Assembly: GCA_002705575.1 (NCBI GenBank)
Contig: PAHI01000023.1
Location: 1-64,000 of the forward strand
Direction: 5' to 3'
Source of the DNA: Fidelibacterota bacterium
Lineage (GTDB): Bacteria; Marinisomatota; Marinisomatia; SCGC-AAA003-L08; GCA-002719095
DNA: 64,000 nt
A program made the translations under genes and the position numbers. The notes beneath the pieces were generated by a model. That model was not told where the DNA came from and did not search any database. It saw only the letters and a list, made by a program, of their open reading frames with translations. Of this stretch, positions 13,782-21,640 are shown one piece after another (the first letter of the stretch is position 1; each line of letters begins with the position of its first letter).

Positions 13782-14040
13782 TTTTTTTAATAAATTTATA
13801 ATGTTTTTTAATTGGCTCTTCAACTTTCCAAGTACAATTCAAGCCTTTAGGAAATACAACATAATCTCCAGAACCTATATTTACAGAATTTATAGGACCT
13901 TTTACAAGAACTTTTCCACTAATAATATAGCAGTGTTCTTCTTGCTCATAACTCCAATCAAAGACACTTACATCGCATGACCATAAGGGCCAATCTTTAA
14001 AATCTTCTAACTTTTTATTTTTAATAACTTTAATTTTCAT
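13771..14040 (-). CDS. Small cupin domain protein (DUF861/Cupin_3 type)
   Basis: An 89-residue single-cupin protein. The sequence WPLWSCDVSVFDWSYEQEEHCYIISGKV and GDYVVFPKGLNCTWKV follows the DUF861 pattern, which is related to ureidoglycine aminohydrolase cupins but mostly uncharacterised. I use the ATG at 14040, with GAGG about ten bases upstream; a GTG four codons earlier is possible. It overlaps the YbdK-type gene by 11 bases and the deformylase gene by 11 bases, so it sits in a tightly coupled unit. The metal-binding His set is incomplete relative to classical cupins. The role is unknown. Confidence 0.75.
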   Translation of the reverse strand: MKIKVIKNKKLEDFKDWPLWSCDVSVFDWSYEQEEHCYIISGKVLVKGPINSVNIGSGDYVVFPKGLNCTWKVEEPIKKHYKFIKKNAS

Positions 14041-15154
14041 AAACCGGAACACCTCTAACTGTTTCTTTAATTAAAAAATCCACAACATCTTCTATTTTTT
14101 GATTTTTTTTAAATATCTTCAACTGCATATCTGCGCTAGTTCCTTTTTCAACTATATTTTCAATGTTTTCAATATATTTGTTAGTTCCAAGGTCATCCAC
14201 AACATCTTTAATAAAATCGAGCATCTCATAAACCAAACTTTTAAACAAAACCTCCTTATCTGCACCTAAATCTATAAGCTTTGCATTTACACCATATTGA
14301 CAAGCTCTCCATTTATTTTCATGAATCAAAGAACTCCTATAATCTCTCCATGTCTGATTAGACTTCCTAAGAACAATAAACTTTGCTACAAGAGCTTGAA
14401 TTAAAGCCACAATAGACAATGCATCTTTTAAGTTTGTAACACAGTCACACATTCTGAATTCAAGAGTAGGATACGATTTATGAGGCCTTATATCCCACCA
14501 TATTTTTGTTGCATCGTCGATACTATTGCTCTTAATTAGAGTCTTAACGTAAAGCTCATACTCCTGGTAAGATGAAAAAATTTCTGGGACTCCCGTTCTT
14601 GGTAAATCCTCAAAAATAATACTCCTAAAAGACTTAAATCCTGTTTCACTACCTTGCCAGAATGGAGAAGAAGAAGACAATCCCATTATATGGGGAATAA
14701 AATACCTCATCTGATTCATGATATCCATCTTTAAATCAAGGTCTTTTATTCCAATATGTACATGCATTCCAAAAATAAGCATTCTCTTACCAACATACTG
14801 AGTAGAGTCCATAAAACCATGATATCTAGAATTATCTGTAACTATTTGATTTTTCCAGTGAGAAAAAGGATGAGTGCCTGCCGCAATAATATCGAGATTG
14901 TTTTTATTGGCATATTGTTTTACGATTGCCCTTAAATGCTTTAAATCTTTTTCTAAATCAAAGAGATTGTTGCAAACCTGACTCCCTATCTCTATTTGTG
15001 ACTGCAAAAGCTCAGGCTTAATATCATGCTTAGAAACTAAAGACCCTTCTTTTAAAATTTCTGTAACATAAGATGTCAACTCTCTTGTTTTAGGGTTTAT
15101 TAGTTGGTACTCCTCTTCAACCCCTAAATTAAGCTCAGATATTTCTTTAATCAT
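14030..15154 (-). CDS. ybdK: Carboxylate-amine ligase, YbdK/GCS2 family (copy 1)
   Basis: A 374-residue member of the glutamate-cysteine ligase type 2 family. Hallmarks are NLGVEEEYQLINP (N-terminal, metal-binding Glu residues), GTHPFSHW, FGMHVHIGI, a WWDIRPH segment and EFRMCDCVTN. YbdK itself has only weak glutamate-cysteine ligase activity in vitro and its natural substrate is unknown, so glutathione or a related dipeptide is only a possibility. A diverged paralogue lies at 55620. The ATG overlaps the stop of the upstream hydrolase (ATGA) and its end overlaps the cupin gene, making hydrolase, ligase, cupin, deformylase and exonuclease one run of coupled genes. Confidence 0.85.
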   Translation of the reverse strand: MIKEISELNLGVEEEYQLINPKTRELTSYVTEILKEGSLVSKHDIKPELLQSQIEIGSQVCNNLFDLEKDLKHLRAIVKQYANKNNLDIIAAGTHPFSHWKNQIVTDNSRYHGFMDSTQYVGKRMLIFGMHVHIGIKDLDLKMDIMNQMRYFIPHIMGLSSSSPFWQGSETGFKSFRSIIFEDLPRTGVPEIFSSYQEYELYVKTLIKSNSIDDATKIWWDIRPHKSYPTLEFRMCDCVTNLKDALSIVALIQALVAKFIVLRKSNQTWRDYRSSLIHENKWRACQYGVNAKLIDLGADKEVLFKSLVYEMLDFIKDVVDDLGTNKYIENIENIVEKGTSADMQLKIFKKNQKIEDVVDFLIKETVRGVPVYEN

Positions 15155-17880: not shown

Positions 17881-18189
17881 CTAAGAATTTCTGTCAAACC
17901 AATTTCTATAAGATTTACTAATGATGTCAAAGTCAATTGATATAATTTCTGGAGTTTTATAATTGTGCTTGCTTGCTATAGTACTATTTACTTTTTTAAT
18001 GTTTTTTGATTTACATTTAACAATAAGCATATACTCTATATCATTTCTGACTCTTTCATTCCATACATAGGCAGAATTAACTCTATCTATAATTTGAACA
18101 CACGGAGAAACCCCATTGAGCAACAAAGCGTCTCTTATTTTATAGGCGCTACCTTTATCATTGGTGGTAGTTATTACAGCTTTATACAT
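17881..18189 (-). CDS. cutA: CutA1-type periplasmic/cytosolic trimeric protein
   Basis: A 102-residue CutA1 family protein. Matching segments are ITTTNDKGSAYKIRDALL, LNGVSPCVQIIDRVNSAYVWNERV and YMLIVKCKS, with TPEIISIDFD near the C-terminus. The family forms trimers related to PII and was linked to divalent cation tolerance, although its role is unclear. I take the ATG at 18189; a GTG 12 codons upstream would add an unrelated Asn/Phe-rich tail. The gene is preceded by the 200-bp stretch holding the structured element at 18238-18421. Confidence 0.88.
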   Translation of the reverse strand: MYKAVITTTNDKGSAYKIRDALLLNGVSPCVQIIDRVNSAYVWNERVRNDIEYMLIVKCKSKNIKKVNSTIASKHNYKTPEIISIDFDIISKSYRNWFDRNS

Positions 18190-18237
18190 TATATTAAAAT
18201 TATTACTAAAATAATAAAAATTCACTAAATTTAAGCT

Positions 18238-18421
18238 GAGCTTTAAAGTATTCGGAATGTTATTTTTAGACCTTTCAAATTACTTATAGGGAGATTTACT
18301 CCTTATTTCAAAAACAGGCCTTTCATTTAGTGATCAAGGAAGTTTGCGATTCAAGGGAAATCACCCACTCATTTTCTAAAGAAAAGGAGTACTAAAAATG
18401 CACTCCGAATGCTAGAAGCTC
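18238..18421 (-). ncRNA. Putative structured RNA, 6S-like rod with central bubble
   Basis: A 184-base imperfect inverted repeat fills the gap between hflX and cutA. The closing helix pairs 18238-18243 with 18416-18421, then 18247-18256 with 18404-18413, and 18258-18269 with 18392-18402; there is one A-C mismatch and one bulged base. Next comes a one-sided 27-base bubble (18270-18296), then TACTCC (18297-18302) with GGAGTA (18386-18391), CTTT with AAAG, and an apical GTGAT/ATCAC stem. Long closing stem, asymmetric bubble and apical hairpin, and the total length, recall 6S RNA. No open frame covers it. The strand is not certain; minus is chosen because both flanking genes read that way and T-rich sequence follows. 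A cutA leader or a palindromic mobile remnant are alternatives. Confidence 0.45.
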
Positions 18422-18426
18422 TTCAT

Positions 18427-19695
18427 TTAGGTTTCAATAAGCTTATCGATAAAGTTGAAATCCTCTTTTCTTCCTCTTACTTTGATTCGTATAAATTTAT
18501 AGCCATCATCTCTTGAATCTACCTGAAACATTCTATATATATTCTTCAAAAGGCTTGATTTATCATGCTTAAGAACTATTGTCCTTGATATAAAATCTTT
18601 ATTAATAAAATTTAAAATCTGTTTTTTCAAATAGTCTACCATTATATGTTCTTTAGCTGAAACAAAAATAGCATCTGAATACTTTTTCTTAAGAAAGCTC
18701 ATCTTTTCTTTATTTTTAATTTGATCTATTTTATTAAAAACCAATATAAAGTTCTTTAATTTAATGCTCATGTCATCAAGTGTAAATTTCACAGTGCTTA
18801 TATGCTCTGAAATAACTTTTCTAGACTCACTCCCATCCACTATAATTAAAATCAAATCAGATTTATCAACCTCCTCAAAAGTCGATCTAAATGAAGCAAC
18901 TAAACTATGAGGTAATTTTTTTATAAATCCAACCGTATCTGTTATTAATGCATTTGTATTTTTGTCAATTGAAAAGGCTCTAGTTGTTGTATCTAGTGTA
19001 GCAAAAAGCTTATTTTCGACATATGTTGAGTCTGGTTTGCATATAGCATTCAACAATGAAGATTTTCCTGCATTTGTATATCCAACGATAGACGCTCTAA
19101 ATGAATTATCTCTACCAGCAGACTGCACTTCTCTATTTTTTTTAATTACTACAAGCTCTTTTCTTAGCTTTGTAATCTTATTTCTAATAAGCCTTCTATC
19201 TATCTCTATTTGCTTCTCTCCAGGCCCTCCTCTTGTACCAACTCCTCCCATTTGACGCTCAAGGTGAGTCCATTGCCTTGTTAATCTAGGAAGCATATAT
19301 TGAAGTGAAGCAAGCTCTACCTGATACTTAGATTCTTTAGTTTTTGCATTATTTTTAAATATTTCTAAAATAATACCCGTTCTATCAAAAATGACTATTT
19401 TTTTGGTTAAAAGTTTTTGAATATTTTTAAATTGAGAAGGAGATATTTCCTCGTTAAAAAAAACATATCGACAATTTAATAAGCTTGCTTTTCTCTTAAT
19501 AGATTCTAGCTGACCTTTACCATAATAAGTAGATGGATTGATTTTTTTTAAATTAAATATCTGCTGACCCAGTACATTGAAACCCAATGTAGAAGCTAAA
19601 GACGCATACTCTGTTAAACCATCTTTCAGTTCTTCTTCACTGTAAAACTGAGAACCTGTAACTAAAAAACATTCCAACTTATAGCCTTTTTTCAA
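18427..19695 (-). CDS. hflX: Ribosome-associated GTPase HflX
   Basis: A 422-residue GTPase that splits stalled or hibernating ribosomes. The N-terminal HflX domain includes NPSTYYGKGQLESIK and FFNEEISPSQFKNIQ; a glycine-rich linker GGVGTRGGPGEKQIEIDRR follows; the G domain has G1 GYTNAGKSSLLN, G3 DTVGF and G4 NKID. The start is TTG at 19695, inside the end of the BatA-type gene (17-base overlap); no in-frame ATG exists before the conserved region. A second TTG six codons in is also possible. It is immediately followed by the structured element at 18238-18421. Confidence 0.93.
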   Translation of the reverse strand: MKKGYKLECFLVTGSQFYSEEELKDGLTEYASLASTLGFNVLGQQIFNLKKINPSTYYGKGQLESIKRKASLLNCRYVFFNEEISPSQFKNIQKLLTKKIVIFDRTGIILEIFKNNAKTKESKYQVELASLQYMLPRLTRQWTHLERQMGGVGTRGGPGEKQIEIDRRLIRNKITKLRKELVVIKKNREVQSAGRDNSFRASIVGYTNAGKSSLLNAICKPDSTYVENKLFATLDTTTRAFSIDKNTNALITDTVGFIKKLPHSLVASFRSTFEEVDKSDLILIIVDGSESRKVISEHISTVKFTLDDMSIKLKNFILVFNKIDQIKNKEKMSFLKKKYSDAIFVSAKEHIMVDYLKKQILNFINKDFISRTIVLKHDKSSLLKNIYRMFQVDSRDDGYKFIRIKVRGRKEDFNFIDKLIET

Positions 19696-21640
19696 AAAAA
19701 CCTGCTAAAAATGATTCTAGGATCAGAAGCAAAATTGAAATCAACATAAAAACTCTCCACACTTCAGTTCCTCTAATTCTGTTTTTTACGGTTTCATAAA
19801 AACTATCTGTATAATCAAAAATCGCCACATTCTTGAAGTTTTGGATTATAACATCATCAGGCAATTTATCAAATACAGTCTCCGTAGAATCTGTATTTAC
19901 TACAAGCTGTTTTAAAAGCATATCTTGATATTTTATCACATAGTTACCTGGATTCTTTATATTGCCTAAATATACCTTATTAGAATTATTTCTAACTTTT
20001 TCTTTATAGCCCGATTCACCAATAATCATGATAGGACTTTTGTAATCTTTTAGATATGTGGCGTTGAGAGGATTTTCAGATATAGATGTAAATTCAGAAT
20101 CTCTCTTATCTTTTGAGGTTAGCACATAGTAAACAAATGGAATGAATGAAGCCTTTACAGGAAAATCGCTATCAGAAAGATTTAAGCTTACCCCGACAAC
20201 ATCAATTAATCCTTCATTGTAAAACCGCCTATTCCATAAAGAGTTTAGCCTTGATGTTTCAATCATCGAAGATTCATCTAAAGGAAGACCTAGAAATCGA
20301 TTTACCTTAAATAAATCGCTTTCTTTTGCACCAGAAAAGACCTCCTTGAATAAATTTTTATTAAGAATATCGTTTTTTGTTACGACAATTGAATTTTCTG
20401 AAAAATTTAATCTGTTATCAAAAAAACTAAAGTCTATCAAGGCTTGATTTTTATCTGTATTCGGAAACCAAATTAAATGCCCTCCAGCTTCAACATATCT
20501 TTCAAAATCATACAGACCAGAATCATTGTTTGGAATTTCAGAAAACACTACGTCATATTTCATTAAATTACTATAATTAGAATTACAATTTTGCAAAGAA
20601 ACAACCTTATCTTCAGATATGGAATTGACAGCTAATGTTAGAAAATTTCTTAACCCTGCATCATAAATATCACACAAACATGCTTTTATTTCTGGCAATA
20701 TTTTTAGTCTTGAATAATATTTATCACTAATAATAGATTCTTCAATTTCTAATTCTGCAACTATATTGAAATCACCCCTACTTTCAAATAGCCCATTAAA
20801 CTCAATTGAATTCATACCTTTGTATAAGCTTACATTTTTAACCAACTTCATATCGTCTAAATATAGATATGCATTAATAGATTCATAAGGATTACTACTA
20901 TAAACATCAACCTTAACTGTAAATGGCTCATTTGGCAATATCACTCTATTATCAGTAGTAATTGATTTGATTACGGGTCTCTTTTTTTCATTAAAAGTAT
21001 TAAAGAAAGTTGTATTCCACCATTCAATCTGATCTATTCCTTTAAAAAAATCAGCATCTAAATCACTAAATATATACAGATCTCCATTTTCATAAATCTG
21101 CTTAGATTCATCAAAGTATTCCTCTATCAAATCCACTAAATACGAGGCTTGATAATTATGAATTAATTGCAAGTCATTAATGTTAAACTTTTCAATTAAG
21201 CCATCATAAACAAGGTTTTTATTGGCTGAAACAATTCTTAAATTTGTGGAAGGGCTATACTCCTTAATTATTGAAGCAAGTAAATTATTAAAACGTTTTG
21301 CCTGTTCATCATGAATATCTTTGCTGAAATTAGAATACGTATCATCTATTAAAACTCCAACTATGCTAGAGGTTGGATCATAAAAAGCACTATTAAGACT
21401 TGATTTTAAAGTAGGTCTTGATATAGCTAAAATTAAAAACAGAATTATAAGCATTCTTATTAAGAGAAGAAAAATATTTATAAGATTAATATTTTTAACT
21501 GAATCACTTTTTAAAACATTTACAAATCTGATTGCTCCAAATTCAATAGTTTTAAATTTTCTATTATTTATAATATGAAAAATGAGAGGAATAAAAGTGA
21601 CCGGCAAAAGCCATAAAACTGAGCTGAAAATAAACTCCAT
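19679..21640 (-). CDS. BatA-type (aerotolerance regulator N-terminal domain) membrane protein
   Basis: A 653-residue protein. The N-terminus (MEFIFSSVLWLLPVTFIPLIFHIINNRK) is the BatA N-terminal domain with a helix, a short basic loop, and a second helix at about residues 55-76. A long extracytoplasmic region follows with a ThuA/VWA-like part (VGVLIDDTYSN early, VFSEIPNND and GGHLIWFPNTD later), and a final C-terminal helix near residues 630-648. No full VWA MIDAS motif is apparent. Such proteins are typical of Bacteroidota and relatives, usually near MoxR and DUF58 genes, which are absent here. Strong TAGGAGG ribosome site; ATGA overlap with the kinase-like gene. Function unknown. Confidence 0.78.
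   Translation of the reverse strand: MEFIFSSVLWLLPVTFIPLIFHIINNRKFKTIEFGAIRFVNVLKSDSVKNINLINIFLLLIRMLIILFLILAISRPTLKSSLNSAFYDPTSSIVGVLIDDTYSNFSKDIHDEQAKRFNNLLASIIKEYSPSTNLRIVSANKNLVYDGLIEKFNINDLQLIHNYQASYLVDLIEEYFDESKQIYENGDLYIFSDLDADFFKGIDQIEWWNTTFFNTFNEKKRPVIKSITTDNRVILPNEPFTVKVDVYSSNPYESINAYLYLDDMKLVKNVSLYKGMNSIEFNGLFESRGDFNIVAELEIEESIISDKYYSRLKILPEIKACLCDIYDAGLRNFLTLAVNSISEDKVVSLQNCNSNYSNLMKYDVVFSEIPNNDSGLYDFERYVEAGGHLIWFPNTDKNQALIDFSFFDNRLNFSENSIVVTKNDILNKNLFKEVFSGAKESDLFKVNRFLGLPLDESSMIETSRLNSLWNRRFYNEGLIDVVGVSLNLSDSDFPVKASFIPFVYYVLTSKDKRDSEFTSISENPLNATYLKDYKSPIMIIGESGYKEKVRNNSNKVYLGNIKNPGNYVIKYQDMLLKQLVVNTDSTETVFDKLPDDVIIQNFKNVAIFDYTDSFYETVKNRIRGTEVWRVFMLISILLLILESFLAGFFEKRL

Follow-up and report, generated by a model that had tools for sequence, protein, structure and literature searches.

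A probable diverged 6S RNA gene beside the 3′ end of hflX in Marinimicrobia

Introduction

6S RNA determines the amount of free RNA polymerase in slow-growing cells. A 6S-like RNA, 6S-Flavo (RF01685), is known from the Bacteroidota, a neighbouring phylum within the FCB group. HflX, whose gene adjoins the element studied here, is a ribosome-rescue GTPase.

According to the accessible parts of PMC8876501 and PMC9130861, 6S RNA occupies the RNA polymerase carrying the primary sigma factor and is released from it by the synthesis of pRNA. The former source, in the text available to us, places the pRNA start of Escherichia coli 6S RNA at U44, and describes how the free 6S-1 RNA of Bacillus subtilis forms a hairpin in the 3′ strand of its bubble and has its pRNA initiated at a C with GTP. 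The actinobacterial Ms1 RNA is described in the accessible portion of PMC9130861 as about 300 nt long, with extra hairpins at its 5′ and 3′ ends, and as binding the core polymerase. A structured RNA linked to hflX, the uORFC-6-1 motif of Bacillales, precedes hflX and includes a short reading frame, as far as the available text of PMC8632094 goes.

We analysed a structured element in a 64,000-nucleotide stretch of DNA (hereafter the window) and compared it with these RNAs. The initial annotation had regarded it as a diverged 6S RNA, a new structured RNA or a cutA leader. The first of these is strongly favoured by the present analysis, with a probability of about 0.94 for a diverged member of the 6S RNA (ssrS) family.

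Results

The element had been described from the sequence as an imperfect inverted repeat filling the gap between hflX and cutA. Both neighbours were confirmed by protein family matches above the cut-off (TIGR03156 and PF03091, respectively; Table 1). The cutA product scored 73.5 bits against the NCBIfam CutA model, which is under the cut-off of 120, and its start is likely the ATG at 18189, as read from the sequence. Since both genes are on the - strand, an RNA on the + strand would be convergent with hflX and divergent from cutA. Upstream of and adjoining hflX, on the same strand, the product of 19679-21640 (-) has an N-terminal domain of the BatA aerotolerance-regulator type, and elsewhere in the window 14030-15154 (-) encodes a YbdK-type carboxylate-amine ligase (GCS2 family) that scores above the NF010039 cut-off.

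Table 1. Coordinates of the element, its parts and its neighbours in the window
Feature	Position	Strand	Basis
6S (SsrS-like) RNA gene, probable	18237..18423	+	RF00013 alignment ends, R1 match 18230-18426; true ends uncertain by some nucleotides
Closing stem, 5′ strand	18238..18269	+	MFE; arm-swap test
Closing stem, 3′ strand	18392..18421	+	MFE; arm-swap test
Central bubble, 5′ strand	18270..18285	+	Unpaired in MFE; conserved CTTTCAA-type core in relatives
Apical arm, conserved CAGGCC...AAGGAAGTTTG terminal stem-loop	18289..18366	+	Rfam pairing; invariant columns in alignments A1, A2; covariation
Hairpin, 3′ strand of central bubble	18367..18390	+	MFE; helix 6 of alignment A4
Candidate -10 box TAAATT, weak, off usual place	18226..18231	+	Sequence; nearest TAANHT in window, at -43
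hflX, convergent neighbour	18427..19695	-	TIGR03156, 386.1 bits (cut-off 216.75)
cutA, divergent neighbour	17881..18189	-	PF03091 (CutA1), 85.8 bits (cut-off 22.4)

The structured element itself is real. The + strand of 18220-18440 folded with a minimum free energy (MFE) of -58.4 kcal/mol, compared with a mean of -38.75 (sd 4.44) for shuffled sequences (z -4.43), and none of 200 shuffles reached the native stability; the fold of the - strand was weaker (z -3.28), with one of 200 shuffles equally stable. The MFE structure of the + strand contains 28 closing pairs in runs of 7, 10, 3 and 8. The runs are broken by an internal loop (2x1), a mismatch (1x1) and a bulge of 1 nt, in agreement with the initial annotation, and nine more pairs lie beyond the closing stem. 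The bubble described there as one-sided exists, with an open 5′ strand of 16 nt, but is not quite one-sided, because a hairpin occupies its 3′ strand. The apical region was split into separate local hairpins in the MFE structure of the window alone, whereas a single continuous arm is present in that of the closest relative, in the Rfam structure and in the consensus structure. The rod of closing stem, bubble and apical arm is seen in the MFE structures of relatives and in the consensus, and the stem and bubble in the window. The size and shape are those of 6S RNA, which is a rod of about 160-200 nt with a terminal loop.

No Rfam family matched the window at the gathering threshold. When the threshold was relaxed for 18180-18480, RF00013 (6S) was the top match among 4227 families. 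It was aligned over its full length (model positions 1-187 of 187) to 18237-18423 on the + strand with 20.5 bits (E 0.026), although this score falls 26 bits short of the gathering cut-off of 46.4 bits. Besides this, only two CRISPR repeats, both at chance level, matched the interval at E ≤ 10, and RF01685 gave no match there at E ≤ 10.

We collected relatives through HflX, retaining 80 of the 142 loci found. These were labelled as Neomarinimicrobiota/Marinimicrobia (66), unlabelled bacteria (11), FCB group (2) and Flavobacteriaceae (1), and the closest of them (L001) was 58% identical. Judging by these labels, the window most likely belongs to Candidatus Neomarinimicrobiota as well. Twenty-nine hflX-linked relatives, with the window excluded, were used to train a covariance model, R1; the underlying alignment (A2) consists of relatives picked for diversity, namely 27 of the 43 loci that a regular expression had retrieved, together with L061 and L067. 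The relatives have a consensus of their own in A2, with a bubble of the CAGAACUUUCAA or CAGGAUCUUCAA type and a terminal stem-loop of CAGGCC...AAGGAAGUUUGC. This held-out model detected the element in the window (18230-18426, + strand) with 109.1 bits (E 5.7e-21), while the runner-up match in the 64 kb reached 20.5 bits. Strong R1 matches of 83-160 bits were found in 65 of the 80 loci.

At the level of whole genomes, R1 matched in 73 of the 80 relatives (36/40 and 37/40 in two halves), and 71 of these 73 had a single match, as expected for a gene kept in one or few copies throughout a clade. The search for extra copies that the initial annotation had suggested revealed no dispersed copies in the relatives. 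Second matches were confined to a weak one in G009 and a strong one in G011, the genome of L014, where R1 scored 143.9 bits at C43:323-533 and 141.5 bits at C4:2958-3163; this pair reflects either a mixed bin or 6S paralogy of the kind known in Bacillus. R1 was not found in G014, G015, G030, G033, G036, G065 and G079, two of which are bins of 0.8 Mb and the others 1.6-3.4 Mb in size. In a sample of the phylum, 141 of 199 genomes were positive under stricter filters, a count that includes many genomes on which R1 was trained and for which at most 12 candidates were scored per genome. A long imperfect inverted repeat within an AT-rich gap might also be a mobile, MITE-like palindrome or a chance repeat. 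However, the single match in 71 of the 73 positive genomes, the conserved place and orientation, and a conserved core with compensatory changes (see below) make this explanation practically negligible, and for the relatives a mobile palindrome is refuted.

RF00013 was then compared with R1 in the same genomes. RF00013 matched in 10 of 32 relatives' genomes at E ≤ 1, none above the cut-off and all located at the hflX 3′ end and opposite to the gene in strand, and in 13 of the 48 others at E ≤ 0.1 with stricter filters. Only one of the 80 genomes, that of L053, passed the cut-off (46.7 bits), with a copy that aligns clearly to RF00013 across both bubble and terminal loop; the other 22 of the 23 matches fall under it. 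In each of the 23 genomes, the RF00013 match falls where R1 also matches, as judged by comparing the coordinates by eye. The homology to RF00013 is both direct, in the full-length alignment of the window, and indirect. The low score in the window notwithstanding, the relatives supply the link to 6S RNA, because the held-out R1 recognises the element and RF00013 matches lie at R1 places. It follows from the Rfam model, the relatives, the covariation and the copy search that the element is better regarded as a diverged 6S RNA than as a new structured RNA.

The recognition is one-way, in that RF00013 found E. coli ssrS with 139.8 bits while R1 gave no match at E ≤ 10 in the E. coli ssrS region (L167). 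Reciprocal recognition is a supporting test only and lies outside the definition of RF00013 by Rfam. The failure of R1 to recognise E. coli ssrS would nevertheless suit another polymerase-binding RNA of the same plan, such as an Ms1-like RNA, or a descendant of 6S RNA that has lost release by pRNA; the rod with a bubble is common to both kinds, and for the present element pRNA synthesis and sigma dependence are extrapolated from 6S biology. We consider this improbable. The element is about 185 nt long, compared with about 300 nt, and its model is devoid of end hairpins of the Ms1 type, as these are described in the accessible part of PMC9130861; the bubble and the terminal loop are homologous to RF00013 at the sequence level, and, RF00013 aside, Rfam gave nothing at E ≤ 10 beyond the two chance-level CRISPR repeats. 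On length and end hairpins, an identity with Ms1 itself was rejected.

An identity with 6S-Flavo was also rejected, since RF01685 has no match at the element and the relatives are mostly negative for it. Among 18 genomes searched, RF01685 scored above its cut-off only in the Flavobacteriaceae-labelled G033 (L007; 100.9 bits). Two weak matches below the cut-off (24.8 and 24.5 bits) were seen in the genome of L001 and none in the other 16. G033, which has 6S-Flavo and no R1 match, serves as an internal control for the two kinds of 6S RNA.

The compensatory changes proposed as a check by the initial annotation were found in three tests. In alignment A4, 91.9% of the cells were paired, double-changed cells numbered 345 compared with 108.7 after shuffling, and the covariation score was 0.436 compared with at most 0.115 for slid versions of the structure; A4 has 72 rows, including six chance matches, all of which were used for covariation, and it was fitted to the model structure. 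The hairpin in the 3′ bubble strand (helix 6) was paired in 86.8% of the cells, and all three of its pairs change on both sides. The Rfam-derived apical structure was evaluated on an alignment of 11 rows made from sequence only: 77.0% of the cells were paired compared with 66.0 after shuffling, 30 cells were double-changed compared with 10.9 (0/500 shuffles), and the covariation score was 0.355 compared with at most 0.154 for slid versions. Several pairs (5′ columns 81-82, 90-91 and 107) do not form in the majority of rows, indicating that the apical arm of the relatives differs in detail from that of Rfam.

The third test exchanged the arms of the closing stem among the first 66 rows of A4, which were also used for the counts of G-U pairs, C columns, orientation and promoter boxes. 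The arms were unaligned beyond an anchor taken from A4. Cognate arms paired with a mean of -25.5 kcal/mol compared with -12.4 kcal/mol for swapped arms. Counting as rivals only 3′ arms less than 60% identical, the cognate 3′ arm was the best partner in 45 of the 66, and some divergent foreign arm equalled or beat it in 21; two of these 21, L031 and L072, have masked bases in their arms. The 5′ arm of the window paired with its own partner at -31.7 kcal/mol compared with a mean of -11.1 kcal/mol for divergent foreign arms, none of the 65 being better. The apical and arm-swap tests are less circular than that on A4 and agree with it.

The polarity of the changes favours the + strand. G-U cells outnumbered A-C cells by 217 to 25, in a structure that was itself derived on the + strand, and the + orientation had the lower MFE in 60 of 66 sequences. 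The strand of the RF00013 match, also +, is independent of the G-U/A-C count. An RNA on the - strand is rejected on these three grounds.

In all 65 loci that have the RNA in the hflX flank, among the 80 examined, the R1 match is antisense to hflX. It lies within 150 nt of the hflX stop in 57 of the 65 and within 700 nt in 60, while eight lie 540-4732 nt away. In L074, L059, L060, L044 and L048 the RNA is about 4.5 kb past the hflX stop, which suggests an insertion or rearrangement. In eight further genomes it is outside the examined flank (73 genomes compared with 65 loci), and in one of these, L065, almost no flank was available. cutA adjoins the RNA in 7 of the 65 loci, so that the leader of cutA suggested earlier, which would be conserved upstream of cutA and on its strand, is dismissed; the RNA is on the opposite strand. 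In a wider form, this explanation would place a cutA leader or attenuator, or a terminator or stabiliser of the hflX transcript, on the - strand. The element does fill the hflX-cutA gap, a terminator-like site is found inside it on the - strand (18406-18386; one compared with a shuffled mean of 0.2), and a hairpin like an intrinsic terminator was seen by eye just past the element in some relatives. Given the rarity of cutA as a neighbour, the RNAs remote from the hflX stop or outside its flank, and the polarity, such a role is very unlikely.

Promoter boxes were located by their distance upstream of the point where the closing stem ends on its inner side. Boxes of the TAANHT type start 51 times at 46-55 nt, in 47 of 65 sequences, compared with a rotation control mean of 16.8 and maximum of 28 in 1000 runs. 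TTGA starts at 71-75 nt were found in 15 of 65 (control 3.2, maximum 9). Among 54 non-redundant sequences, the numbers were 37 and 10, respectively. This spacing in the relatives fits a sigma-70-type promoter. Another TTGA peak at -35 to -31 (22 starts) is the conserved TTTGA at the 5′ end of the RNA, and a minor one near -10 (11 starts) falls within the stem. In the window, neither the -10 nor the -35 box of the relatives is at its usual place, and the weak candidate listed in Table 1 was not picked by a promoter consensus scan of the window. The scan reported three sites in total, near the shuffled mean of 1.6; two of them, on the + strand, have their ends at 18200 and 18212 and precede the RNA by some 25 nt or more. 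In some loci, for example L046, L052, L075, L024 and L005, a CCCC...GGGG hairpin with a T run, resembling an intrinsic terminator by eye, directly follows the closing stem in the space that separates two convergent genes.

Discussion

The element shares with its relatives homology to 6S RNA, a conserved rod with a bubble, covariation, polarity and place, and it is present in 73 of 80 genomes. We propose that it is the ssrS gene of a probable member of Candidatus Neomarinimicrobiota (Marinimicrobia/SAR406), and that this gene would be read on the + strand, starting a short distance upstream of cutA and heading toward the end of hflX. By analogy with established 6S biology, an RNA of ~185 nt would accumulate as growth slows, and its bubble would mimic an open promoter and occupy the RNA polymerase with the main sigma factor. 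When nucleotides return, the polymerase would copy a short pRNA from the 5′ bubble strand, and this synthesis would rearrange the RNA and free the polymerase. Transcription of the element, polymerase binding and pRNA synthesis are all predicted here from that analogy. U18275 occupies the same RF00013 position as U44 of E. coli, and C18276 is adjacent to it; of 66 rows, 52 carry a C at the candidate start. The pRNA would thus likely start near U18275/C18276 and run to lower coordinates.

A bolder proposal is a distinct 6S subtype of the Neomarinimicrobiota. With its bubble consensus and a conserved C at the initiation site, the pRNA would begin with G and the release of the polymerase would sense GTP, and the conserved position antisense to hflX could, through antisense transcription, link the silencing of polymerase in starvation to the expression of HflX. 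We regard this as speculative and rather doubtful. Most likely, the element is a 6S RNA gene of the ordinary kind that has been overlooked in a marine phylum with largely uncultured members.

The standard Rfam cut-off misses it there. In the open-access papers searched, 6S RNA was not paired with Marinimicrobia or SAR406, nor ssrS with hflX, a scope that leaves subscription papers aside (e.g., the 2014 survey of 6S dissemination); likewise, among the matches listed for 6S RNA in uncultivated bacteria or metatranscriptomes, no title concerned a Marinimicrobia 6S RNA. With R1 and the hflX landmark the gene is easy to locate, and its abundance can be measured in existing ocean metatranscriptomes, where it is a possible index of growth state. 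With it, the FCB bacteria would also have, separate from 6S-Flavo, a 6S RNA of the general RF00013 type.

Among the described systems, the uORFC-6-1 motif is likewise a structured RNA linked to hflX, but the present element adjoins the hflX 3′ end and is on the other strand, in contrast to the position given for the motif in the accessible text. Ms1 is similarly a polymerase-binding RNA with a central bubble, and differs in the length and end hairpins considered above. 6S-Flavo is separated from the element by the RF01685-positive genome without an R1 match and by the negative result for R1 in the phylum of that genome (0 of 99 genomes, a weak null). The element resembles B. subtilis 6S-1, as partially described above, in the hairpin in its 3′ bubble strand and in the frequent C at the candidate start, whose function here is a prediction. 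Its gene is located at hflX, whereas E. coli ssrS is between zapA and fau. RF00013 is the closest match: the window scores under its cut-off and the relatives have their own consensus in the bubble and terminal loop, whereas the length, the order of closing stem, central bubble and apical arm, the alignment to the full model, and the letters in the bubble (AUAGGGAG) and in the terminal stem-loop (GCC...GGAAG) are the same.
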